Positions 7,639 to 28,614 of a stretch of DNA of 28,614 nucleotides are shown in pieces. Numbering within the stretch: position 1 is the first letter of the stretch; every line of letters starts with the position of its first letter. Source of the DNA: a virus; the IMG/VR virus record IMGVR_UViG_3300035698_027260, positions 1 through 28,614 of that record. One strand, written 5' to 3'. Both the position numbers and the translations under genes were made by a program. The notes below the pieces were generated by a model. That model was not told where the DNA came from and did no database searches. It saw nothing but the letters and a program-made list of their open reading frames with translations.

Positions 7639-7664
7639 CTACTCGCAAATAGCTTAAGTTGTTA
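7639..7664 (-). promoter_or_regulatory. weak copy of the two-part promoter motif before the clamp-loader genes
   Basis: On the minus strand TAACAAC, 13 bases, then GAGTAG. The second half and the spacing match the tRNA-island element; the first half matches at only 4 of 7 positions. It overlaps the 3' end of the upstream gene and lies about 20 bases before the delta-prime start. Could be chance. Confidence 0.25.
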
Positions 7665-10349: not shown

Positions 10350-10570
10350 TGCTGTCCCCTTAGAGGAAATACCATTCTAAACATCTGATTATTATAGGCC
10401 AAAGATTGATGTAAAAAAGTGAAGGTTCTTCTTGACTCAGTTTGGGGGTGGAGTAAAGTACCAAAGGTTGTGATGGACATTGCTCTTTTTCCCTAGCCTC
10501 GTCCGCGACGTCATAACCGAGGAACCCAAGGTGCCATACCTAACGGCTGTCACCCAAGGAGGACATTTGT
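10350..10570. promoter_or_regulatory. divergent promoter region between the two sigma-like genes
   Basis: For the leftward gene a perfect minus-strand -10 TATAAT occupies 10391-10396 with a poor T-rich -35. For the rightward gene TTGACT (10433-10438) and TAAAGT (10455-10460) are separated by 16 bases, a good primary-sigma promoter. Downstream, AAGGAGG (about 10556) is the ribosome binding site of the rightward gene. Both promoters look host-type, unlike the two-part element used in the tRNA island, which suggests early expression of both regulators. Confidence 0.55.
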
Positions 10571-11599
10571 ATGACAATTAAGCTGCCCACTTCTAGTGGT
10601 TTTCGGGACTCTTTACTTCGGGTCTTGGGAGACCTGTCCAAGAACACCCCTAACAAATTTGTCCTCGTTAAGGACAACCTGCACAAAGCTGTTATCCGCA
10701 AAGCGGGCTACAACCCGTACAAGCTAGGCATCTATGGAACTCCGGAAGCTGGTTGGTGCTTTGAGGGCATTTGTAAGCCTGCAGGGTTTCGACGAAAGAT
10801 CGTTATTGCTTATCAAAAGATGCACAGGGGTAGTAAGAACCCTCTTGTAGTCGGGGGTAATCGGGGGTACTGGGCACTGACTGAGGCGGGTGTGGCTGCA
10901 GCAATGGCTTTAGAGAAGGTGGCTTGTAAACAGCCTAATCTCACCGCAGAATTCCTAGGCCGCAGACTCAAACAAACTAAGGGGGGACTTCTCTCCCTTT
11001 TACGTATCCGCATAGCCGCAAAAATACCCACATCGGCATCTGCTTCTTTAGTGGAAGATCATGTGCAAAATTGTTTGGTTAGGCTTATTCATAGGGACTC
11101 TTTACGTTCCCGTATCTTGTTGGGGCTTCCTATCATGGATCATCATATAGCTTCTTGGGCCGTCAACTCTGCCTATGCCGATGTTCGGAATGATGGAACT
11201 GAGCCCTTGGCCCGAGAATTCCGTGGGAGTAAAACGGAAAAAGAAAAGGCACGAGGCGCCGCCGCTCCCGCCGCTCTTCATCGGAGTTTAGATGACACTA
11301 TTGCCATGTATGACGAAACCGGTGGGTTGCTAGATATTGCTGGGGATGAGAGTCATTTTGAGGATGTCACTACGTTCCGAGCGATTTGGGAAAAAGTCGT
11401 GGGGGTTGTGGAAGAAAAAATGGGTTCCGATAAGGTTCGTTTACTAACCTTACGGGCAAAAGGATATACCCTTCAGGAGATAGCTACCGAAATGGAGATC
11501 CCTAAAACGAAGGTTTCAGTGGCGTTAGCTACAATGAAGGATCTCGCACGTAAAACTGTCATGGCAGATTCCATAGCCATACACGAAATCTTTGCCTGA
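10571..11599 (+). CDS. sigma-70-family-like protein with N-terminal winged-helix-like part
   Basis: 342 residues. SLVEDHVQNCLVRLIHRDS resembles sigma region 2.1-2.2, continued by MDHHIASWAVNSAYADVRND in place of regions 2.3-2.4. The C-terminal RLLTLRAKGYTLQEIATEMEIPKTKVSVAL is a clear region 4 helix-turn-helix (L-x-G-Y-T/S-x-x-E-I-A). The first 120 residues include GNRGYWALTEAGVAAA, the strand-turn typical of a winged-helix wing (compare GKWALTEKG in Mrr-like N-termini). The start follows AAGGAGG at good distance. A hairpin terminator lies about 85 bases past the stop. It probably redirects RNA polymerase to phage promoters; the two-part motif in this window is the obvious candidate target. 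Confidence 0.65.
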   Translation: MTIKLPTSSGFRDSLLRVLGDLSKNTPNKFVLVKDNLHKAVIRKAGYNPYKLGIYGTPEAGWCFEGICKPAGFRRKIVIAYQKMHRGSKNPLVVGGNRGYWALTEAGVAAAMALEKVACKQPNLTAEFLGRRLKQTKGGLLSLLRIRIAAKIPTSASASLVEDHVQNCLVRLIHRDSLRSRILLGLPIMDHHIASWAVNSAYADVRNDGTEPLAREFRGSKTEKEKARGAAAPAALHRSLDDTIAMYDETGGLLDIAGDESHFEDVTTFRAIWEKVVGVVEEKMGSDKVRLLTLRAKGYTLQEIATEMEIPKTKVSVALATMKDLARKTVMADSIAIHEIFA

Positions 11600-11682
11600 A
11601 AAGACCGCCCTGGTTTCAATTCTAAGGGGTGTTGCACTGCTATGAGTGTGAATAGATAGACTTCACTTAAAAGAAGCGTGGC

Positions 11683-11708
11683 GCCCCTAGGAGTTTATCC
11701 GTAGGGGC
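11683..11708. terminator. bidirectional terminator hairpin between convergent genes
   Basis: GCCCCTA at 11683-11689 pairs with TAGGGGC at 11702-11708, extended inside by GGA/TCC. TTTCG follows on the plus strand and CTTCTTTT on the minus strand a little further. It lies between the stop of the rightward sigma-like gene and the stop of the leftward repeat protein, so it can serve both. Confidence 0.65.
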
Positions 11709-11739
11709 TTTCGTACACTGACGGGAGGGGCTACTTAGA

Positions 11740-12960
11740 TTAGGGTCTATCCCAAGCCAACCATTCACTAACTGTAGTAGTATCATCGGAAGCGGATCTT
11801 CCGTGACTCCCTTTGTATTCCGTTTTAGCCTGTGAAAGTTTCTTCGGACGGAAACGTATGTCCCTTTCTACTGCGGGGATGCCATTTTTCTTAGCGTTCT
11901 TCATTTCCCGCAGGCTCATGTAACCAAGCTCAGCGCCGCCATGTCCTAAGTCCGCCCATCCAAAGAAAGTATCTTTCCCATCAAATTCTGTGATGAACCA
12001 AACAGCATCCGACCAGGGACAAAAGAATTTAACATAGACCATAGGGTCTTTCACTTCGTCCTGTGCATAGAGGGCTGGGATTTTCCTAGCTGTTCCCGCG
12101 GGTAAAAACTGGTAGTTACCCGCTTCTTTCTTCTCTTCCATGACTTCTAACTTGTCATAGTATTTAGGGTCTTCCGTGAGATGGTCCATAGCGATTTCCT
12201 GAGCTGTATCAGAATCATCAGTATGCTCCTTCTCTACTTTGGTTCCCTTAGCTAAAGACTTAGTATCAAAGTCGGCAGGTTTTTTACCCTCAGCTAGACC
12301 ACCGGGGATCTTGGAGGCAGCGGCTTTGAAGTTATCCTTATACTTCTCTTTCATGTCATTCCAGATTTTCTTGTCCTCTGGAGTCATGTTTTCAGTAGGG
12401 TCCGCGGGTACGCCTTCCTCAAAGCGGGCTTCTATCTCGTCGCCTTCCTCATCCTCGTCGGCCTCTTTAGGAGTGCCTTCATAGCGAGCCAGTAACAAGT
12501 CTGATGCTTGGGCCAAACGTAGTTTTTCCGTTAGACGAACGCGAGCAACAATAACGGGCTCCTCCGCATGCTGACAAGGGCAACCGGAATCTTCTTCTGG
12601 CCCTGTACCGTCGGGAATCCCTGGGGTGTTCCATCCGGCGCCTTTCTCTTGTGGTTTAGTAGCATCCCCTGGGAGCAAGGATTTAGTTTCCTCTTTAGCA
12701 CCACCACCTGAAAGACTTGTAACTTCCGTGTCGTCTTTAAGGTCAACATTCAGAATAGCTTCTAAGGAGCTGTCTTTAGGGCTTGCTTTTTTGAAGTTGT
12801 CCCTGTTCTTTTCATTCTCATCTACCCAGCGGTCAGCAGCTTCAGGATTGCCGTGGTCCCGTAGATACTCAGGGACATCAATACTAACGCCTTCCTCAAA
12901 CCTACTCTCGTGTTCTTTTTGCTGGGCCATCACTTGTAGTTTCTTTAGATAATCAGACAT
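11740..12960 (-). CDS. modular protein with DUF2958-like domain and internal repeats
   Basis: 406 residues from the ATG with GGAGG five bases upstream; that start overlaps the previous gene by 8 bases. Two related segments beginning RFEEGV (R20 and R179) each run about 40 residues and end in a DNFK motif, with W in the middle. Around 250-277 AQEIAMDHLTEDPKYYDKLEVME resembles a small DUF5661-type helical domain. Around 290-355 PALYAQDEVKDPMVYVKFF and FDGKDTFFGWADLG and ELGYMSLREM match the DUF2958 pattern (LY..D, VKFF, EFDG.DTFFG, ELGY.SL). Linkers are acidic and low in complexity. The function of DUF2958 is unknown. Modular layout and coupling to the peptidase gene suggest an accessory or virion-cargo protein. 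Confidence 0.65.
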   Translation of the reverse strand: MSDYLKKLQVMAQQKEHESRFEEGVSIDVPEYLRDHGNPEAADRWVDENEKNRDNFKKASPKDSSLEAILNVDLKDDTEVTSLSGGGAKEETKSLLPGDATKPQEKGAGWNTPGIPDGTGPEEDSGCPCQHAEEPVIVARVRLTEKLRLAQASDLLLARYEGTPKEADEDEEGDEIEARFEEGVPADPTENMTPEDKKIWNDMKEKYKDNFKAAASKIPGGLAEGKKPADFDTKSLAKGTKVEKEHTDDSDTAQEIAMDHLTEDPKYYDKLEVMEEKKEAGNYQFLPAGTARKIPALYAQDEVKDPMVYVKFFCPWSDAVWFITEFDGKDTFFGWADLGHGGAELGYMSLREMKNAKKNGIPAVERDIRFRPKKLSQAKTEYKGSHGRSASDDTTTVSEWLAWDRP

Positions 12961-15900
12961 TTTCTCCTCCTGAGAGATATCGTTGGGCAATTCGTTTAGC
13001 TTTATCACTAACTTGGGAGGCAACCATTTGACGGCCTTCCGTAGTGATTTCGGGCTGTACTACCATAGCAGGACGTCTTACTAAATAGTCCGGCCATTTT
13101 TCGTACCACTTACCATAGAATTCCGATTTAGGAACTATTCTAACTGTTTCATCCGGATCAGGCATATTTGGGTCAGCCACACTTACGGTGAGATCCTCAT
13201 CCACATCAAAGATTACGGATGCGTGGCTCCATGGACGGCCTTCCGGATTCCAAGCTATCATAACGGGGTAACCCTGGTCAGTATATTCTTTTACCTGCCG
13301 AAGAGTTGCCGGACAGATAAAAGTGATCCGTTGGCCATAATGCTGAGCTGCTGCGAAAGCACTCTCCCAGGAAGCTCCTTGCATAGGCATGGCGCCCATG
13401 ACCTTATTGACTAGCTCTGGGGTTGTTTCCTCCGGAGCTAGACCATTCGCCCTTAGGCACATGGACAAACTGGTTGTCATACAATTATACTGATTCTGCT
13501 GACGGACAGGGGTGACCCCAGCGGCAGCTTGTTTTAGTTTCATTTTTTCTCCTAAAGGATAGCCAGCCTTTGTGACGGCTTTATATAATTCATCTACGGC
13601 ACGTTTCCATTTCTTAGGCGACTTAGCTTTCCAAATTTTAAAATGAGAATTAGTTTCTAAATGCTTGGGCTCTTTTGACATGCCCGTAAAATCTCTAAAG
13701 GCTTCTTGGTGGTTCCTACTGGCGATGTTCCGTATTTTCCGAAGGAAGTTACGGATGGCACCCCCTAAATCCGTTTGGAATTCTGGCTCTTTAAGGGCGT
13801 GTTCCCCTTGACCATGCTGCCTATAAAAGTCTGTTCTGAGATAGCCACCAGGGTTGCGGTCAGGGTCACGCATATTGGAGGGCGGGAGCCCCGCCAAATC
13901 TTTTAGGCCCTTTAGTTCTTTAAGGAGTGTTTGACCTACATGCTGCATTTCATGTGTTAAGGTGGAATCTAATTCTGAAAGCACATCTTTGAAACTCTTT
14001 ACTGATTTGGGTGTTGCGTATATGTCCTTTACGTCTAACTGTTTTTTATTGGGGTCCCATTGTCCGGTGTCCCCGGAGTGCTCCTCGAAAGCCAGCACAC
14101 ATAGGATAGGGGACCAACCCTTTTCTTTAAGTACTTTTTCAGCCTTAATGTTACTTTTGGTATATTTCCAACCTTTCAGATTAAGTGGGAACTTCTTTTT
14201 TGCTGTACTAGAATATGTTCTTGCTTTCTGAGTGTGTTTTAAACATTCACGACGGAGAAGCTGTAATTCAACCATAGAAGTATCTTGGTTTTTATTGGTT
14301 TGGAGTAGTGTTTTGATTTTTTTAAGTATGGTTTTGCCTAGGCGGTTGCACACTTCTTGGGCATCATTAATATTTTGTGGGTATACAGTAGCACCCTTAA
14401 AATTAAGCTTTTGCTTCCCAGAAGCAACTAGAAAATTGTTCCCTACTCTGCGTACTCCGATAGTAAAGGCATCAAAACCAAAAGTAACCGTAATGCTACG
14501 GGTTTGTCTGTTTTTCATCTTATCCATTGTTCGGAGACCATGTAGGAAACCCTCGACTTGCAAGCGGGCTTCTAAAAGGCTTTGTGTTTCCCCAACTCTT
14601 ATGGCATACTTCCTGTTCACAAACACTAAGAGGTTACTTGCATAAATAGATCTCATCCAATTGCCTACTTCCGCAAGCATTGCTGGGGGTGCTTCGAACA
14701 AACCTGCTTGCTTTTTTTGGGCTTCCCAATAACTGGCTACAACATTTGCGGAGGATGTACTTTTTAGTTTCATGGGTCCTCCTAAAGAAAATCCCGCTTT
14801 CTTAGCTTCTTTGAAAAGCTCATTAACGGCTTTCTGCCATTTTTTAGGAGCCCTATTCCTCCAGATTTTGAAATGGCGGTTCAGGGCTAGATACTGTTCC
14901 TGTTTAATGAAAGTCGTTTCCGGAGAGAGCCCCGTAAAATTTCTAAACGCTTGCCCATGTGCTTTTCTAGGAACCTCTTTCATCTGCTGAAAGAACTCCC
15001 GCACAGCATTCCCTAAATCAGTTTGAAATTCAATATCTTGGAGTGTATGTTCCCCACGACCGTAGCTATAAGGTTTGTCTTTGCGATACCCATGTGGGTC
15101 CCTTTCTGGGTCTCGTATTTTTTTAGGGGGTAAACCAGTAGGCTCCTTAAGATCCTTTAGGACTTGCAGAAGGGTTTGACCTACATGGAGCATCTCATGT
15201 TCCACAGTGCCTAGGACTTGTGCCAAACCTAAATGGAAAGTTTCCAACCGTTGTGGTTGTGGCCTGAGCACATCAACCTCCAATTGTTTTTTGGATGCGT
15301 ACCATTGCCCACTACGGGCACGATGACCTTTGAAGTCCAAGAAACAATTGATAGAAGACCAACCCTTTTTTTTCAGCATCGCTTCAGGCTGATCCATGTC
15401 TTTTACATATTTCCAATCTTTCAGATCAATCGTGAATGTCTTTTTTGCTTTGCCAGTATAGTTCTTTGCTTTGGGGGTGTACTTGAGGCATTCCCTTTTA
15501 AGGCGTAGTAGCTCAACCCTGGTGTAAATTTCAGATTCCTTATCCCCATCCCCACGGATTTCTAAGCCCCGTAGCTCTAATTGGAAATCCATAATTTCTC
15601 TTTGAGCTTTCCAGCCTATCCAATTCTGAGCATCTTCTGCGCTATAAGGATATCGTTGGCGTTTGAACGTTAGTCGTTTTTTTCCCTGGTCCACTAAAAA
15701 ACGAGGGGCTTGGTCATCAGGGTACGCTACACGACGGATACCTAAGATTGAAGAGTGGTATAAGGTTTCTATCTTATGTGATCTGGTCTCACCAACTTTC
15801 ATTTTGGTGATGTCATAGTTAATAAAAGCCTCTAGCTCTTTAATATGGTCTTCTAATTGTTTTTTCAGCCCCACCATCCGTTGCAGGTACTTCTCTACAA

Positions 15901-16342: not shown

Positions 16343-16828
16343 CTAACCCTGTTTGGCTACCATTTCCAGCATTTCTCGTGCGGACTCTGGTGACAACTTA
16401 GGTAGACAGGCTCCAATTTGGGTATCAACTTTGGCAGCGAGAGCCTTCGCTAACCATTGTTTTTCAGTGTCGTTGGCTTTTATATAGTTGCCAAGGTATT
16501 CGTCATCTTGTGCTATTTCCATAAGGGCTATTAGGAATGCTTCCCTTCGGACAGCTTCAGTTAGTAAGCCATGGGCAATATGCTGAAACCCACCACCGGG
16601 CCAGCTTGATATGGTTTTCTGATCCTCTGGAGAGGACACATCGTGGAAAGACCTTAGTTGTCCCCGCTCATTTACGGTGAGTGTTATGGTCAGTTTTGCT
16701 GAGGTTGTACCTTTAGCCATTTTCCCAGTTTCCATATTAGCAGCCCCGGAATCGCTCCGAGGAACGCTGCCCCCAGAACCGCCATGCTTAGTATTATTAC
16801 CGTTCCCATCTGTTCCATTTTTATTCAC
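16343..16828 (-). CDS. hypothetical protein with Gly/Asn/Ser-rich N-terminus
   Basis: 161 residues, unrecognised. It starts with GTG overlapping the chaperonin stop by 8 bases, with GGAGG six bases upstream inside the chaperonin gene. Residues 1-35 are flexible (NGTDGNGNNTKHGGSGG), then a short beta segment (AKLTITLTVNERGQLRSF) and a helical C-terminal half (LLTEAVRREAFLIALMEIAQDD; ESAREMLEMVAKQG). Tight coupling to a chaperonin might mean a cofactor, but it does not resemble GroES (no mobile-loop IVL and beta-barrel pattern), so I do not claim this. A near-match to the two-part promoter motif lies just upstream. Confidence 0.68.
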   Translation of the reverse strand: MNKNGTDGNGNNTKHGGSGGSVPRSDSGAANMETGKMAKGTTSAKLTITLTVNERGQLRSFHDVSSPEDQKTISSWPGGGFQHIAHGLLTEAVRREAFLIALMEIAQDDEYLGNYIKANDTEKQWLAKALAAKVDTQIGACLPKLSPESAREMLEMVAKQG

Positions 16829-18416
16829 CCCTCACCTCCTCTACTCTGCGGACCTGTGCGATGCTCGTATTAATTGATAAAAGTGTCGTTGCAACGGAAA
16901 CGGCTGCCTTCAGAGCTTCCCTTGTAACATTAGCCGGATCTATAATTGGGGGGTCCATCAGCAAGTCCCTGGTTGTATTCTCTAAAGCGTCCCATCCATA
17001 AGAAGTTCCTATGGTCTGGGCATCCTGAACCCTAGTCAGAATGTTAAAAGGATCATACCCAGCGTTAGACGCTAAGACCATAAGTGGCTTTGCTAAAGCC
17101 TGCTGTAATATAGTCCATCCTACTAAAAGACCCGCACCCATATCACTAGGGGCCTTTAGATCTGAGGAGATCCCTAATAAAGCGGCGCCCGCACCTGGTA
17201 GGACTCCACCTCGAAGAGAAGCTTTTACGGAAGCTAAGGCATCCTCAACACGGGCTCGTCTTTCTTTGAGGACGTTCTCGGTCTCTCCCCCTACCTTTAG
17301 TATTACTAGGCCCCCCGAAAGTGTGGCCATCCTTTCTTGTATGAGATCCTTGTCATAATCTGAGGGGGAATTCTCTGCTTCAGTTTTCAAGCCATCTAAA
17401 TAAGAACGGAGACCCATAATCTTATCCGGATAGGCCGTGAGTATCGTGGACTTCTGTTTGACGAATGCCGTACGTACTGACCCAAACCATTCGGAATCCC
17501 ATTTCTGTGGGTTTAGTCCGGAGACATTTTCTGCCAAGGTGGCCCCGGTAAGGGCTGCTATATCTTGAAGGGCATCCCTTTTACGGTGTCCAAAACTAGG
17601 ACAGAGGATAGGGATACTTTCCAGTACATCATTCTGAAGGTTCAAGAGTAAGGTGGCCCGAGCTTCATGGGTTACGCTTAAAGCGAATATGATGAGAGCC
17701 CTTGGTTTCCATTGAGAGGCACTTTCTAAAAGCTCTTTGACATCCTTTACGGAACTAAGATGCTCATTGATAACGGCTATCAGAGGACCGTCAAAGGTTG
17801 TTTCCTCCTTTATAAAGGAAGGGTAAGGGCCACGGTCAATCTCCATACCATCTTTGATCTCTAGTTTGACATCAGTACTCTGTCCATCCATAACAATGAT
17901 AGTGCCATCTCTACCTATAGCCATAGCAGCTTCACCCAGGGCCTCCGCCACTTCGGGATCTCCATTAGAAGCTAACCAAGCAACCCTCTCTATCTCTTCT
18001 TGATTTCGTAGAGGGTGACTCATTCCTGCTAATCTAGTATCGACCTCTAGGGCAGCTTCCCGGATACCTTTGCAAAGAAGTTGGGGCAATACTCCTGCCG
18101 CCAACTGTTGCATACCCAAGCGTAAAATCTCAGCGGCAAGGATTGTGGTAGTAGATGTACCATCCCCAACAGTGTCATTTACCCTAATACTGGCATCCCT
18201 AAGAATTCGTGCCCCCATATTTTCAACGGGGTCTACTAAAGCTACTTCTCTAGCAACAGTAACGCCGTCCCGTGTGGGTAGCAGTCCTGCAAATCGTTTT
18301 AGGATACAGATACCTCCACAAGGGCCATAAGTTACTGCAACAGCTTTCGCTAAGGTCATGGCACCTTTTAGGAGACGTCGCCTAGTTTTAAAGCCGTGTT
18401 GTACTTGCACGGGCAT
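16821..18416 (-). CDS. groL: GroEL-type (group I) chaperonin
   Basis: 531 residues, close to GroEL (about 545). Signature segments are in order: TYGPCGGICIL (nucleotide loop, normally TLGPKGRNVVL), TRDGVTVA with the catalytic Asp of the D52 position, NDTVGDGTSTTTILA with the D87-equivalent, apical-domain-like middle, GGLVILKVGGETENVLKERRARVEDAL with the D398-equivalent, GGVLPGAGAAL, and NAGYDP. The C-terminal GGM repeats of bacterial GroEL are absent. GGGAGG precedes the ATG. No GroES-like gene is visible in the window. Phage GroELs are known from a few large phages and are thought to fold phage proteins. Family certain; clients unknown. Confidence 0.93.
   Translation of the reverse strand: MPVQVQHGFKTRRRLLKGAMTLAKAVAVTYGPCGGICILKRFAGLLPTRDGVTVAREVALVDPVENMGARILRDASIRVNDTVGDGTSTTTILAAEILRLGMQQLAAGVLPQLLCKGIREAALEVDTRLAGMSHPLRNQEEIERVAWLASNGDPEVAEALGEAAMAIGRDGTIIVMDGQSTDVKLEIKDGMEIDRGPYPSFIKEETTFDGPLIAVINEHLSSVKDVKELLESASQWKPRALIIFALSVTHEARATLLLNLQNDVLESIPILCPSFGHRKRDALQDIAALTGATLAENVSGLNPQKWDSEWFGSVRTAFVKQKSTILTAYPDKIMGLRSYLDGLKTEAENSPSDYDKDLIQERMATLSGGLVILKVGGETENVLKERRARVEDALASVKASLRGGVLPGAGAALLGISSDLKAPSDMGAGLLVGWTILQQALAKPLMVLASNAGYDPFNILTRVQDAQTIGTSYGWDALENTTRDLLMDPPIIDPANVTREALKAAVSVATTLLSINTSIAQVRRVEEVRGE
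16841..16866 (-). promoter_or_regulatory. near-match to the two-part promoter motif inside the chaperonin 3' end
   Basis: On the minus strand GAGCATC, exactly 13 bases, then GAGTAG. It matches 6 of 7 bases in the first half and all in the second. However it lies in coding sequence and only about 13 bases before the GTG of the next gene, so any transcript would begin at or within the ribosome binding site. It may therefore be coincidence. Confidence 0.25.
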
Positions 18417-19497: not shown

Positions 19498-19525
19498 GGA
19501 TCATCTCACAATGGTCTTGAGTAGT
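19498..19525 (+). promoter_or_regulatory. two-part promoter motif, copy 1
   Basis: GGATCATC (19498-19505), 13 bases, GAGTAGT (19519-19525). Lies 14 bases before tRNA-Ser(GCT). It is one of four near-identical copies in the island with exactly conserved spacing and unconserved spacer. Confidence 0.6.
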
Positions 19526-19539
19526 GTGGTTGATAATAT

Positions 19540-19631
19540 GGAAAGGTGGCCGAGCTTGGTTGATGGCGCTCGCCTGCTAAGTGAGTGTGCGGCTTAAACC
19601 CGTACCGGGGGTTCGAATCCCCCCCTTTCCG
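19540..19631 (+). tRNA. tRNA-Ser (anticodon GCT)
   Basis: Acceptor GGAAAGG/CCTTTCC, anticodon loop CTGCTAA, long serine-type variable arm (GTGTGCGGCTTAAACCCGTAC region), T-loop TTCGAAT, discriminator G as expected for serine. Reads AGU/AGC. No encoded CCA. Confidence 0.92.
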
Positions 19632-19644
19632 CTGTTAGTGTTAT

Positions 19645-19730
19645 GGAAGATTGGCAGAGTTGGTCGAATGCTGTGGGTTGCAACCCCACAGACCTTATGG
19701 TCCACACAGGTTCGAATCCTGTATCTTCCT
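19645..19730 (+). tRNA. tRNA-Cys (anticodon GCA) with unusual long variable arm
   Basis: Acceptor GGAAGAT/ATCTTCC, D stem GGCA/TGCT, anticodon stem GTGGG/CCCAC with loop TTGCAAC, T stem ACAGG/CCTGT. Discriminator is T, the cysteine identity base. Between the anticodon and T stems lie 16 bases in which GACC pairs with GGTC, making a class II variable arm. Ordinary bacterial tRNA-Cys has a four- or five-base variable loop. Confidence 0.85.
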
Positions 19731-19746
19731 CTTTGAAAGTTTGTTT

Positions 19747-19834
19747 GGAAGGATGGCAGAGTTTGGTTATCGCACCGGTCTTGAAAACCGGAGGCCCTTC
19801 ACGGGGTCCGGGGGTTCGAATCCCTCTCCTTCCG
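19747..19834 (+). tRNA. tRNA-Ser (anticodon TGA)
   Basis: Acceptor GGAAGGA/TCCTTCC, anticodon stem CCGGT/ACCGG with loop CTTGAAA, long variable arm CCC...GGG, discriminator G. Reads UCA and other UCN codons. No encoded CCA. Confidence 0.93.
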
Positions 19835-19838
19835 CTTT

Positions 19839-19920
19839 GTGGATGTGGTGAAATGGTAGACACGCCGGTCTGAGGGACCGGTCCCGTTTAGGGGTGTGGG
19901 TTCAAGTCCCATCTTCCACA
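19839..19920 (+). tRNA. tRNA-Leu (anticodon GAG)
   Basis: Acceptor GTGGATG with CTTCCAC (one T-T mismatch at position 6-67), anticodon stem CCGGT/ACCGG with loop CTGAGGG, long variable arm, T-loop TTCAAGT, discriminator A. Reads CUU/CUC. Confidence 0.9.
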
Positions 19921-19924
19921 CTTT

Positions 19925-20018
19925 GGAGAGGTTGCCTAGTCAGGATTAAGGTACCTGCTTGGAAAGCAGGCGTAGTTGTCAAAGACTGCCGGGGGTTCAA
20001 ATCCCTCCCTCTCCGCCA
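19925..20018 (+). tRNA. tRNA-Ser (anticodon GGA), CCA encoded
   Basis: Acceptor GGAGAGG/CCTCTCC, anticodon stem CCTGC/GCAGG with loop TTGGAAA, long variable arm with GTAGT/ACTGC-type pairing, discriminator G followed by CCA at 20016-20018. Reads UCU/UCC. It lies 24 bases before the Pth2 start. Confidence 0.92.
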
Positions 20019-20042
20019 AATGAAATTTCTAGAGGGGTTCAC

Positions 20043-20405
20043 ATGAGCGAGTACAAACAAATGATTGTGTTACGCAAAGACTTAGGGATGCGTAAAGGTA
20101 AAATGGTTGCCCAGGGTGCTCACGCTTCCCTAGCAGCTATCTTGGATGGGGCCTCGATACTTTCAGACGACCGCATACGTAAATGGCTTGCTGGCCCTTT
20201 TACCAAGGTTTGTGTGGGCGTGGGTAGTGAAGAGGAACTGCTTGAGTTGCATAAGAAAGCAAAGGAAGCAGGAATGATAACATCATTAATACAGGATGCA
20301 GGGGTTACGGAGTTTGGCGGCGTACCTACATATACCGCCATTGCTATTGGGCCGGATATGCGGGAGAAATTACAACCGTTGACGGGGCATCTGAAATTAC
20401 TTTAG
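20043..20405 (+). CDS. peptidyl-tRNA hydrolase, Pth2 (archaeal/eukaryotic-type) family
   Basis: 120 residues, the typical Pth2 length. It should cleave the ester bond of peptidyl-tRNA that has dropped off ribosomes, freeing tRNA. Conserved segments: QMIVLRKDLGMRKGKMVAQGAHASLAA (the K-x-G-K-x-x-AQ-x-x-HA signature), a helix with EEELLELHKKAKEAGM, and IQDAGVTEFGGVPTYTAIAIGP (the DAG-x-T...T-x2-x-IGP signature). The start follows AGAGGGG by five bases; a longer frame reaching into the tRNA upstream is rejected. Bacteria normally use the unrelated Pth1, so a Pth2 set inside a phage tRNA array is notable and probably protects the phage's own tRNA pool. Confidence 0.92.
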   Translation: MSEYKQMIVLRKDLGMRKGKMVAQGAHASLAAILDGASILSDDRIRKWLAGPFTKVCVGVGSEEELLELHKKAKEAGMITSLIQDAGVTEFGGVPTYTAIAIGPDMREKLQPLTGHLKLL

Positions 20406-20412
20406 ATTTTTA

Positions 20413-20440
20413 GGATCATCAGGGCGACCTTTTGAGTAGT
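20413..20440 (+). promoter_or_regulatory. two-part promoter motif, copy 2
   Basis: GGATCATC (20413-20420), 13 bases, GAGTAGT (20434-20440). Begins 8 bases after the Pth2 stop and is followed by a boxA-like GCTCTTTGAAA at 20463 and then tRNA-Trp. Confidence 0.6.
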
Positions 20441-20480
20441 GTTTATGTGCTATGGAGGTTCAGCTCTTTGAAATGTAGGT

Positions 20481-20530
20481 TGGTTATCAGGAAGGTGGGT
20501 GTCATGAACCTGTATCTTTTCTGATAACCA
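20481..20530 (+). other. hairpin before tRNA-Trp
   Basis: TGGTTATCAG (20481-20490) pairs perfectly with CTGATAACCA (20521-20530). The 30-base loop contains a further AGGT/ACCT pair. It ends 11 bases before tRNA-Trp; possibly a processing signal or small RNA. No T-run follows, so it is not a classic terminator. Confidence 0.5.
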
Positions 20531-20541
20531 GCCCGTTTTAT

Positions 20542-20618
20542 GGGTGAGTAGTTCTAATTGGTAGAACGCGGGATTCCAAATCCCGATGCTGGGGGTTCGA
20601 GTCCCTCCTCACCCGCCA
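20542..20618 (+). tRNA. tRNA-Trp (anticodon CCA), CCA encoded
   Basis: Acceptor GGGTGAG/CTCACCC, anticodon stem CGGGA/TCCCG with loop TTCCAAA, T-loop TTCGAGT, discriminator G and encoded CCA. Reads UGG. Confidence 0.92.
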
Positions 20619-20619
20619 T

Positions 20620-20753
20620 GGGGAAGTAGCCAAATTGGTTTAGGCAACAGTCGGTAAAACTGTCAAGTTAACCGCTTTTCATCTCGGCTCCTTTACAGGA
20701 ACCACTCCGAAAAGCATACAAGCATTATGGAGGTTCGAATCCTTCCTTCCCCA
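20620..20753 (+). tRNA. atypical tRNA-Tyr-like gene (anticodon GTA, G33, giant variable region)
   Basis: Acceptor GGGGAAG/CTTCCCC, D stem GCC/GGC, anticodon stem ACAGT/ACTGT with loop CGGTAAA, T stem GGAGG/CCTTC with TTCGAAT, discriminator A. The anticodon reads GTA but position 33 is G rather than the near-universal T. The variable region is about 64 bases (normally 13-20 in tRNA-Tyr) with GCTTTTC pairing with GAAAAGC. A normal tRNA-Tyr lies 230 bases on. It could be an intron-like insertion, a decaying gene or an RNA with another role. Confidence 0.6.
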
Positions 20754-20772
20754 CTTTTTCTTTTTCTTTTTC

Positions 20773-20849
20773 GCTTGGGTAGCTCAGTTGGTAGTAGCAC
20801 CGGTTTGAAGTACCGGGTGTCGGCAGTTCAATTCTGCCCCCAAGCACCA
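20773..20849 (+). tRNA. tRNA-Phe (anticodon GAA), CCA encoded
   Basis: Acceptor GCTTGGG/CCCAAGC, D stem GCTC region, anticodon stem CCGGT/ACCGG with loop TTGAAGT, T-loop TTCAATT, discriminator A, CCA at 20847-20849. Reads UUU/UUC. Confidence 0.92.
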
Positions 20850-20850
20850 T

Positions 20851-20936
20851 GGGTAGGCTGCGGAGATTGGTGGACCGCACCAGACTGTAAATCTGGCTCC
20901 TTCGGGACGTTGAAGGTTCGAATCCTTCCTTACCCA
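20851..20936 (+). tRNA. tRNA-Tyr (anticodon GTA)
   Basis: Acceptor GGGTAGG/CTTACCC, anticodon stem CCAGA/TCTGG with canonical loop CTGTAAA, class II variable arm of normal length, T-loop TTCGAAT, discriminator A. This is the conventional tyrosine tRNA of the array. Confidence 0.93.
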
Positions 20937-20944
20937 CTTTAGTT

Positions 20945-20972
20945 GGATCATCCTTGGTACTCTTTGAGTAGT
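20945..20972 (+). promoter_or_regulatory. two-part promoter motif, copy 3
   Basis: GGATCATC (20945-20952), 13 bases, GAGTAGT (20966-20972), extended by ATAGATG. It is followed by a boxA-like GTTCTTTGG (20987), a CACA..CAAG/CTTG..TGTG hairpin and tRNA-Leu(TAA). A lone GAGTAGT near 21054 lacks the first half. Confidence 0.6.
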
Positions 20973-21103
20973 ATAGATGTGAGATGGTTCTTTGGTAGAA
21001 AGTTTTCCCACACGGCAAGTCAAGGGCTCGATGCGAACGGGGCTTGTTGTGAGATGAGTAGTAGGTTCCGTTTTGGGGTCCCTTACTTACTATTCAGTAA
21101 TAC

Positions 21104-21187
21104 GCCTGGGTGGTGGAGTTGGTAGACACAAGGGACTTAAAATCCCTCGGGCTTACGCCCTTGCGGGTTCGACTCCCGCCCTAGGCA
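21104..21187 (+). tRNA. tRNA-Leu (anticodon TAA)
   Basis: Acceptor GCCTGGG/CCTAGGC, anticodon stem AGGGA/TCCCT with loop CTTAAAA, variable arm GGGC..GCCC, T-loop TTCGACT, discriminator A. Reads UUA (and UUG). Confidence 0.93.
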
Positions 21188-21208
21188 CTTTTAATATAGG
21201 AGACGGTT

Positions 21209-21370
21209 ATGGGTAATCAAGTAAAGGAAGCCCCCTTAGAGGGGAAAGTAGTAATGCCTGATGATGCCCCACGATGCACCTCTTTTGCTCAAAAGCGAAG
21301 GGATGATAGGCTACGGGGGATGCTAAAAGATCCTGTAGTAATCCTAGAGGGCACAAAAACCGATAGGTAA
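21209..21370 (+). CDS. small hypothetical protein between tRNAs
   Basis: 53 residues, starting MGNQVKEAPLEGK and ending ILEGTKTDR. The ribosome binding site TAGGAGA is at good distance from the ATG and the frame is closed by TAA. The sequence is charged, with a basic middle (QKRRDDRLRG) and no motif I recognise. The 176 bases after it (to the next tRNA) contain no convincing gene. It is too short for automatic gene calls but looks real from its start signal. Confidence 0.55.
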   Translation: MGNQVKEAPLEGKVVMPDDAPRCTSFAQKRRDDRLRGMLKDPVVILEGTKTDR

Positions 21371-21546
21371 ACAGCTTGGGGTGCTAAACCTTTTAGCTTA
21401 CAGTAACCGGAGTGATTTCCGGGGAGGCCTGTCCATACCATGGGCCTTATAAAATTGTATGGATTGAAGAAGAAGCTACTTCTTCCTGTACGCCTCTAGT
21501 AAGGGGCCAAGAGAGGGACGGTCTAATCATCCGAGCCTCTTATTTA

Positions 21547-21630
21547 GCCGGGGTGGCGGAATTGGTAGACGCGCTGGATTCAAAATCCAGTGAGGGTAAC
21601 CTCGTGTGGGTTCGATTCCCACCCTCGGCA
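21547..21630 (+). tRNA. tRNA-Leu (anticodon CAA)
   Basis: Acceptor GCCGGGG with CCTCGGC (one wobble), anticodon stem CTGGA/TCCAG with loop TTCAAAA, variable arm, T-loop TTCGATT, discriminator A. Reads UUG. The array now holds four leucine isoacceptors. Confidence 0.92.
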
Positions 21631-21686
21631 CTATCATTTTAGTATGGCGACCTTGTAGGCGTCTGGTTAAAATGTAGCGAGGCTCT

Positions 21687-21714
21687 GGATCATCCGTAAA
21701 TCTTTTAGAGTAGT
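21687..21714 (+). promoter_or_regulatory. two-part promoter motif, copy 4
   Basis: GGATCATC (21687-21694), 13 bases, GAGTAGT (21708-21714), extended by ATGGATG. The transcript would contain the boxA-like element at 21751, the structured RNA region and the tmRNA. Confidence 0.6.
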
Positions 21715-22009: not shown

Positions 22010-22364
22010 GGGGGCGAATTGGTTTCGACTGGGATGATGTAAGTCCAAGTCGCGTGTCGGGGATGTTCTGAACCTCGTTAAAAAATGGAACAAACTTTAA
22101 TTGCTAACACTATGCAATTGGCTGCGTAAAACGCAACCCGGAAAACCTGGAAAGGCTATGACTAGGATTTTCCGTCATTTATTTGGCCTGCTGCCTGAAG
22201 CCCGTACTCACGGGGCCGATGGAAACAAGATAAACGGGGGATGTTCATTAAGCATTTCTGGCAAAGGTGCTACTTAATGAACGAGAAAAAAACACTTCTG
22301 CCTACACACGTAGACGCTTGTGACAAACCTTTCTAGGACCGGAGTTCGATACTCCGCGCCTCCA
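22010..22364 (+). ncRNA. ssrA: transfer-messenger RNA (tmRNA)
   Basis: Rescues stalled ribosomes by acting as tRNA-Ala and then as a short mRNA. The 5' end GGGGGCGAATTGGTTTCGACTGGG-type tmRNA start (read at 22010-22033) and the 3' CGCCTCC form the tRNA-like acceptor with the usual G-U at the third pair; the T-arm is CGGAGTTCGATACTCCG, discriminator A, CCA not encoded. The tag frame reads MEQTLIANTMQLAA then TAA at about 22134; the exact resume codon cannot be fixed by eye, but the LAA end is the classic protease signal. TTCATTAAG/CTTAATGAA (about 22244-22281) is one of the pseudoknot-region stems. Length 355 is typical. Confidence 0.92.
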
Positions 22365-22388
22365 CAACGATTTTCCGAGCGCCTCCAC
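22356..22388 (+). repeat. direct repeat of the tmRNA 3' end
   Basis: GCGCCTCCAC at 22356-22365 (tmRNA acceptor strand) is repeated exactly at 22379-22388, just before the endonuclease gene. The second copy also forms the left arm of the hairpin that covers the endonuclease ribosome binding site. Confidence 0.7.
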
Positions 22389-27449: not shown

Positions 27450-27938
27450 TTAGGCCCCCTGTGAGACGTTAGTGACGACTATGGCTGCTTCATAAGCCTT
27501 AACCGTTTTGGCTACCTTGGTTCTGGGAAGCTTGCTAATGACTTCCGTTTTCACCAACTGGGCGGCTTCCTCTACACCAGCTTGAGCCATAAGGGCCTTG
27601 GAAGCATCCTTATCCAAGTTCAATGCTTCAAGCATTGCTTCCCGGATTAGTGCTAAAGCCTTCTCTTTCCCTATGTCCAGCTTACTGATAAGCAAGGCCA
27701 GTGTAGGAAGCAACGGAATAGCTGCGGTGGGGGCTTTATCAGTATCGTGCCCGATGGTCACTTTACCGATGTTCAGATCTAACGAGATCTTGATATTCTC
27801 CAAGGTCTGGTCAGGGGTTACTTTATCACGGGGGTTTTCACCGCCCATGAAGTCTTTAAGTGCTGACTTAACACCACTTTCCAGGGCCAGTACCATTTCT
27901 GGTGTAAGGCCGACAGGCATTTTCTTTGTTTGCGACAT
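27450..27938 (-). CDS. hypothetical protein
   Basis: 162 residues. The central part ISLDLNIGKVTIGHDTDKAPTAAIPLLPTLALLISKL (read in pieces) resembles small phage proteins with a single beta strand and helical C-terminus; the last 70 residues are helical and Lys/Ala/Leu-rich. GGAGAG precedes the ATG at good distance. It is the first gene of a short leftward operon whose upstream region carries the best minus-strand copy of the two-part promoter motif. Function unknown. Confidence 0.7.
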   Translation of the reverse strand: MSQTKKMPVGLTPEMVLALESGVKSALKDFMGGENPRDKVTPDQTLENIKISLDLNIGKVTIGHDTDKAPTAAIPLLPTLALLISKLDIGKEKALALIREAMLEALNLDKDASKALMAQAGVEEAAQLVKTEVISKLPRTKVAKTVKAYEAAIVVTNVSQGA

Positions 27939-27993
27939 GGTCTAACTCTCCTGTGTTATTTTACGTGTCATCTATTTCACTCATACATACCCT

Positions 27994-28019
27994 CTACTCT
28001 TTTCTGGGGGGCGATGATC
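27994..28019 (-). promoter_or_regulatory. two-part promoter motif, minus-strand copy
   Basis: On the minus strand GATCATC (28019-28013), exactly 13 bases, then GAGTAG (27999-27994). The predicted transcript would start about 50 bases before the ATG at 27938. Its position before a gene on the other strand shows the element is not peculiar to the tRNA array. Confidence 0.6.
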
Positions 28020-28020
28020 A

Positions 28021-28614
28021 TTAGTGTCTCTTCCGGCCCTTAAGTTGTATGTCTACCAGATCATTTAGCTTCCCAACTAATAGATGTGGGAAGTCTTCTA
28101 GGGTGTCCGCCCACACATGGTCAGGGAATAATCTTTTGACATAAAAGGCATCCCTTCCAATACCTACCCCGATTACATGGATACCCTGTTCCGCAGCTAA
28201 GCGTATTTGCCTAACGACAACTTGATCATCATTAGGCTGGCCATCCGAAACCACAAACATAAAGCGGGTAGTCTCAGACCGTTGTAGGAGGGACGAGAGG
28301 GCGAACTGAATGCCGTCTCCCATAGGGGTACCCCCTTCGGCCCTTGTATTAGCAAAACGCCACCTGATAGGCCTTAGCCTTTCGTTCCAACCCTTGAAAA
28401 TGTCATATATAACTCCCCCATACCGATGGTAGTTTCCCTCGTCCCCTTCTTGAGGGTAGGCATAACCACCACCGTCTCGGAAGCCTAAAGCTAATACTGG
28501 ACAACCCAGATTGTCTAAGGGGTCCGTTATAGCCAGGAATATTTTAGCAGCCGTAGTTTTCAGGCCCCCCATGGAGCCAGACTCGTCCATAACAACTACA
28601 GCAGCCATGGTCAG
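28021..28614 (-). CDS. VWA-domain protein, CobT-like (partial, 5' end beyond window)
   Basis: 198 codons open to the window edge; an internal ATG eight codons before the MIDAS is not necessarily the start. The metal-ion-dependent adhesion site is complete: DESGS, then EGGTPMGD with Thr, then VVSDGQPND with Asp. VVVMDESGSMGGLKTTAAKIF, LALGFRDGG and VIGVGIGRDAFYVKRLF follow the order found in CobT-type VWA domains of AAA-VWA pairs (CobS/CobT). In phages such pairs are often annotated as cobaltochelatase-like but need not make cobalamin; the partner ATPase would be expected upstream, outside the window. The C-terminus is basic. Confidence 0.8.
   Translation of the reverse strand: MTMAAVVVMDESGSMGGLKTTAAKIFLAITDPLDNLGCPVLALGFRDGGGYAYPQEGDEGNYHRYGGVIYDIFKGWNERLRPIRWRFANTRAEGGTPMGDGIQFALSSLLQRSETTRFMFVVSDGQPNDDQVVVRQIRLAAEQGIHVIGVGIGRDAFYVKRLFPDHVWADTLEDFPHLLVGKLNDLVDIQLKGRKRH

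Follow-up and report, generated by a model that had tools for sequence, protein, structure and literature searches.

We analysed a 28.6-kb virus record, IMG/VR IMGVR_UViG_3300035698_027260 (positions 1 to 28,614; this whole stretch is referred to as the window, and as G000 among the related records). It encodes a RecD2 helicase, GroEL, a peptidyl-tRNA hydrolase, an array of transfer RNA (tRNA) genes and a transfer-messenger RNA (tmRNA). It also carries repeated copies of a two-box, promoter-like motif, GATCATC-N13-GAGTAG, and a 342-amino-acid (aa) open reading frame (ORF; 10571..11599, +) that is a candidate for the sigma factor reading this motif. Five exact copies of the motif were found in the window, against ~0.001 expected by arithmetic from 13 fixed bases at equal base frequencies. 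When up to three mismatches were allowed, the window gave 16 matches, compared with 6.0 ± 2.4 in shuffled sequence, and 0 of 100 shuffles reached 16.

Four of the copies lie on the plus strand among the tRNA genes, and all match GGATCATC-N13-GAGTAGT exactly; their predicted starts are placed at the G of a conserved TG described below. Copy 1 (19498..19525, +) has its predicted start at 19532, 8 nt 5' of tRNA-Ser(gct) at 19540, and is followed by a unit (19540..20405, +) of tRNA-Ser, Cys, Ser, Leu and Ser genes and the peptidyl-tRNA hydrolase gene Pth2. Directly 3' of Pth2 lies copy 2 (20413..20440, +; predicted start 20447), upstream of tRNA-Trp at 20542. Copy 3 (20945..20972, +; predicted start 20979) precedes tRNA-Leu(taa) at 21104, and copy 4 (21687..21714, +; predicted start 21721) precedes the tmRNA gene detected by Rfam at 22010..22367 (+). 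Copy 5, TGATCATC-N13-GAGTAGA (27993..28020, −; predicted start 27986), contains the exact GATCATC-N13-GAGTAG; it directly follows the stop codon of a VWA/CobT-like gene (28021-28608, −) and lies 56 nt before an ORF at 27450-27938 (−).

A preliminary description of this DNA had reported the four plus-strand copies with 8- and 7-base halves at 19498, 20413, 20945 and 21687, and a fifth on the minus strand at 27994-28019, and all five are present as claimed. It had also listed weaker relatives, which fared less well. Only the one at 16841-16866 (−) may be real, as a sixth copy: this uncertain site, GAGCATC-N13-GAGTAG (16840..16867, −), has one mismatch and a TG at the right offset, and lies within the 3' end of the GroEL gene, before an ORF at 16343-16828 (−). 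The others were mostly at chance level, namely 7639-7664 (three mismatches), 1413-1437 (proposed with N12, absent at N13) and 25548 (a GGATTATC-like first box without GAGTAG at N13).

We then considered related phage records. A scan of IMG/VR returned mostly single chance-level matches and a few contigs rich in copies. In the 11 records searched, exact copies numbered 48 in G001 (188 kb), 27 in G002, 19 in G003, 15 in G004 and 3-10 in the others, and the reversed pattern had no match in any of the 11. G024 (30 kb) held 8 exact and 9 one-mismatch copies. Among all gapped five-mer pairs searched de novo, the motif ranked best in G001, G004, G005 and G024, and the motif-bearing phages differ in G+C content (46-59%). 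The fixed spacing noted earlier for the window extends well past it: across seven records in the G000-G009 range, 112 of 115 cases had a spacer of 13 bases, two had 12 and one had 14, with no case at 8-11 or 15-19. The 112 copies form the set used below; not every related record is independent of the others, and the counts include one divergent pair twice. Sequence at 100% identity is common to G001 and G002 (2.5 kb) and to G002 and G007 (6.5 kb), so these three records may come from a single phage genome of about 400 kb. They also contain repeated 1.4-kb stretches of 76-90% identity, possibly mobile elements. The motif family was absent from Rctr197k, PaBG, Lu11 and the huge phage LR745208. 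A nucleotide search of the phage collection found nothing, and searching the literature for the string GATCATC brought up no relevant paper among those listed.

The position of the motif relative to genes was assessed with our own codon-usage gene caller rather than a standard program; it replaced a greedy longest-ORF caller, which had produced antisense false genes. The results showed that a same-strand start codon lies 6-70 nt downstream in 82 of 112 sites, against 5.9 ± 2.5 in 2000 circular shifts (maximum 22). Intergenic positions accounted for 85 of the 112 (16.9 ± 3.9 expected), and in 106 the next gene had the same orientation as the motif. Start codons lay mostly 17-24 and 28-43 nt away, and six distinct back-to-back pairs less than 150 bp apart were all divergent (6/6). 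A T-G pair (T33, G34) is conserved at a fixed offset 3' of GAGTAG in separate lineages, 6-7 bases after GAGTAGT, and 5/5 window copies carry it. If G34 is taken as the start, GGGATCATC falls at -35 to -27 and AGTAGT at -12 to -7, the normal places of boxes read by a sigma factor; transcription would accordingly be predicted to begin at this G. The enrichment before genes that the preliminary description had proposed as a genome-wide check is thus found in the related records, and the conserved T-G lies inside its predicted 6-10 nt. Together with the strandedness and a sigma-like gene in the window, these observations support in silico its reading of the element as a promoter. In 17 of the 112 copies (records G000-G009), a called gene lying upstream ends on the TAG of GAGTAG, an economical overlap of promoter and gene end.

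The motif is unlike host promoters. The host sigma-70 promoter, TTGACA-N16-18-TATAAT, is not matched by boxes GGATCATC and GAGTAG with a spacer of 13, which bears out the earlier remark that the element departs from the host -35/-10 pattern. An extended form of the motif with 17 fixed bases gave 9 single matches in ~85,000 bacterial and archaeal genomes (one per species; the true host may be missing from this set), against ~30 by chance on our own arithmetic, and no contig in these genomes had two matches. This level, at or below chance, argues against a host sigma regulon.

The candidate reader came from weak matches to sigma region 4 in the window ORF at 10571-11599 (+) and in a 203-aa ORF of G001 (171478-172089, −), which were picked by eye and then tested. 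TIGR02937 (sigma70-ECF) was the best NCBIfam match of all four phage proteins considered (window, G001, G009 and G012), covering regions 2 to 4, with E-values of 2.3e-5 to 0.012; the window protein matched nearly end to end (E=0.0015). Its layout comprises an N-terminal region of ~110 aa, region 2 at ~121-205, a linker, and region 4 at ~259-336. The AlphaFold2 model of the window protein has a mean confidence (pLDDT) of 53 overall, better at regions 2 and 4. A Foldseek search with this model against 350,542 PDB chains returned sigma factors or sigma-containing models in all of its best 20 matches, with E. coli sigma-E ranked first (E 0.02, probability 0.98). No single match passes E 0.001, so the weight rests on the uniform kind of the matches. 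All rows from VIA-align were sigma chains, and region 4 alone aligned with Z 9.2 and 1.9 Å over 75 residues. By hhalign, the protein was collinear with RpoE/FecI over regions 2 and 4 (E 6.5e-5). Judged by profiles and a predicted fold, the window gene is a divergent sigma factor. The preliminary description had attributed the fixed spacing to a sigma-like factor; such a gene does sit in the same window, and it had been overlooked there. No RNA polymerase (RNAP) beta subunit was found in the 12 records searched, which makes use of the host core enzyme likely.

Several points weigh against this assignment and against the pairing of gene and motif. The TIGR02937 scores (15.3-24.1 bits) are below the curated cut-off of 42.9 and the single-protein E-values are weak, the hhalign probability is only 64%, and the Pfam Sigma70_r2 profile had no match in the 12 records. 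The fold model has low confidence outside regions 2 and 4, with pLDDT <50 in the linker (203-258). Among motif-bearing records, a sigma gene was found only in G000, in G009 and, in a short and very distant form, in G001; none was found in the motif-bearing fragments G002, G004, G005, G007 and G024, which are incomplete records. G000 and G009 also have the same -35 box, yet their region-4 recognition helices are poorly conserved. The G001 and window sigmas are very distant and may not be counterparts, and the AlphaFold2 model of the short G001 protein was too poor for use. Other weak region-4 matches in G001 and G002 were rejected as sigma factors; they look like plain helix-turn-helix (HTH) or homing-endonuclease-like proteins. 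The N-terminal region of the sigma (~110 aa; window 10571-10900) is duplicated in the G012 sigma, and it is found again in other phage proteins whose C-terminal part is rich in cysteine, in G001 (14808-15785, +), G004 (11044-12078, +) and G012 (59234-60223, −).

The best evidence linking the sigma factor to the motif came from G012, a record fetched solely by homology to the window sigma (identity 32-38%). The results showed no exact GATCATC-N13-GAGTAG in G012. Its top de novo gapped word was instead GGCTTAGC-N13-GKGTAG followed by A (14 copies against 0.05 expected), and a degenerate form of this motif occurred in 22 copies, with N13 only and none reversed. The window and G012 motifs coincide at GG-T-A-C and G-GTAG. 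A consistent hybrid, GGCTTAGC-N13-G(A/G)GTAG, was present in G042, with TG at the same place in most copies. The motif thus varies with the sigma across relatives in one clear case, suggesting that the motif is set by the phage sigma rather than by a host factor.

We also examined the DNA upstream of the sigma genes. A host-type promoter-like box, TTGACT-N16-TAAAGT, lies upstream of the window sigma gene (10432..10459, +). Its general form, TTGAC(A/T)-N16-TANNNT, occurs at the aligned position in G009 and G012 as well, ~140 nt before the ATG in all three records, with 0.005-0.014 such boxes expected by chance per 250 nt. In none of these three records does the phage motif precede the sigma gene. 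A host-type box without the phage motif suggests a cascade from host sigma to phage sigma: the host enzyme probably transcribes the phage sigma gene early, and the resulting sigma would then drive the phage promoters.

Taken together, we propose, with a probability of about 80%, that the motif serves as promoter for a transcription programme specific to the phage, in very large tailed phages without a detected RNA polymerase, read by a divergent phage-encoded sigma joined to host core RNAP, the cascade included. In this proposal, the window sigma, with its regions 2 and 4, would join the host core and read both boxes, (G)GGATCATC at about -35 to -27 and GAGTAG(T) at about -13 to -7, and transcription would start 7 bases beyond GAGTAG(T), at the purine of the TG pair. 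The sigma gene itself would be expressed from its host-type sigma-70 promoter, and its product would drive promoters including those before the window tRNA, Pth2 and tmRNA genes. Where the sigma has diverged, in G012, the boxes have become GGCTTAGC and GKGTAG, with the 13-base spacing retained. The motif, its spacing, orientation and placement before genes, the sigma-type gene with its host-type box and the altered motif of the relative are all seen in the sequence; we infer the start site, the reading by the window sigma, the use of host core and the timing.

Other readers of the same boxes were weighed. The promoter might be read by an alternative sigma factor of the host, taken over by the phages; in its favour, the motif is common to phages that differ clearly in G+C content (46-59%), and several motif-rich fragments yielded no sigma gene. 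A host regulon would show many copies, whereas the ~85,000 species genomes hold the extended motif at or below chance, and the motif changes along with the phage sigma in G012, which makes a host factor quite unlikely. Alternatively, a MotA-like phage activator might read GGATCATC, with a modified host holoenzyme reading the downstream box; in favour of this, the upstream box stays identical between G000 and G009 while the region-4 helix is poorly conserved, the sigma has an extra N-terminal region, duplicated in G012, and G001 encodes unassigned small HTH proteins. We consider it unlikely, since GAGTAG differs from the sigma-70 -10 box, a spacer of 13 leaves almost no slack, and a sigma with both DNA-reading regions is encoded.

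It is very improbable that the motif is an oriented site with a role other than transcription initiation, whether an RNA-processing signal, a recombination or packaging site, or a C-terminal coding motif. It is indeed highly repeated, strictly oriented and found between tRNA genes, and the overlap with stop codons would suit a coding motif. A site of this kind does not account for copies just before start codons with an initiator-like TG, or for the divergent back-to-back pairs. The tRNA arrays offer no coding frame, and a conserved C-terminal coding motif was rejected, since the element also occurs between tRNA genes and only 17/112 copies end a called gene. Hairpin and RNA-family readings found no support: the two boxes lack complementarity and so give no reason to expect a hairpin, and the only families that Rfam detects there are tRNA and tmRNA.

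The phage-encoded sigma that we favour resembles extracytoplasmic function (ECF; group 4) sigmas, such as E. coli RpoE and M. tuberculosis SigL, in having regions 2 and 4 and in its best profile and fold matches. The standard ECF -35 box is of the GGAAC type. ECF sigmas carry regions 2 and 4 and no region 3; in the window protein, regions 2 and 4 are modelled, with the low-confidence linker (203-258) between them. The phage protein differs in scoring below the family cut-off, in a -35 box of GGATC or GGCTT, and in carrying a long linker and an N-terminal region; as it falls short of the curated cut-off and lacks the usual -35 box, we did not file it as ECF. By analogy, the system works like an alternative-sigma cascade. 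In the gp28 and gp33/34 cascade of SPO1, host sigma makes a phage sigma that turns on two-box phage promoters; compared by eye with their consensus, the SPO1 boxes differ from the motif here.

Phage sigma factors with their own promoters are an already known kind, of which Salmonella phage 7-11 gp47 is the closest. As in that kind, a sigma-type protein is encoded here, on scores that are each weak alone, and a repeated, oriented, phage-specific motif unlike host promoters stands before phage genes. SaPh711_gp47 is a divergent sigma that directs host RNAP to eight late promoters of the form GTAAtg-(16)-aCTA (PMC8948821). Shared features are a divergent phage sigma with region 4, two-box phage promoters and a start, predicted here, a few bases after the second box. 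The boxes and spacing differ, one 188-kb record holds 48 copies against those eight promoters, and the sigma here has an extra N-terminal region; the two proteins were set side by side by description only. phiEco32 gp36 uses a single-box promoter, tAATGTAtA, with a start 6-8 bp downstream and no region-4 match (PMC8948821). It likewise steers host core to phage-only promoters, as proposed here, whereas our candidate has regions 2 and 4 and two boxes. In excerpts of three reports, large RNAP-less phages carry sigma factors (PMC7412058, PMC7824862, PMC13282480), including PaBG gene 118 (PMC7412058) and the sigma of group 2 (PMC7824862). The phages here are also large, lack a detected RNAP and encode a sigma; those excerpts give no promoter motif, and PaBG and Lu11 are without the present motif family. 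The present case differs in its box sequence, in a 13-base spacer that hardly ever varies, in how many promoters there are, and in sigma and boxes having diverged as a pair.

Some further features were observed in passing. In the window, a 134-nt tRNA-like gene with an oversized insertion (20620-20753) was found by Rfam and not by ARAGORN, and a 16-bp inverted repeat (20478-20533) lies just upstream of tRNA-Trp. G023, with a single copy of the motif, has dense direct repeats, GGCTC-N13/N19-GGCTC and AGCGT-N7-AGCGT. The motif-less relative Rctr197k (KX853510.1) carries 14 copies of TGGCA-N7-TGCT just before start codons, usually followed by ATMAAGT (best word 16 against 0.06; examples at 129905(+), 134242(+) and 15597(−)). 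With the -24/-12 layout of sigma-54 promoters, this may be another phage-specific promoter type. The same record has a CRISPR-annotated array at 110803-112317, whose repeats contain an inner palindrome (GTCTCAGAN5AAAGATCTGAGCTTCTGTTGTGAG).

Most large uncultured phages are without any transcription map. With this motif, many of their transcription units, including tRNA and tmRNA arrays, could be called from sequence, and a likely reader is named. Comparable phage sigma regulons have six to eight promoters (PMC8948821), and the regulon here would be large and unusually rigid against these. We think it moderately probable that a phage sigma family not described before, marked by an additional N-terminal region, controls a very large promoter regulon (~80 promoters over ~400 kb, maybe in one huge-phage genome) whose 13-base spacer is near-invariant, and that sigma and boxes have diverged together into mutually exclusive specificities in different phage lineages, as natural orthogonal pairs. 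Because sigma and motif change as a pair from one lineage to another, how sigma specificity evolves can be tested directly, and such sigma/promoter pairs could serve as orthogonal promoters.

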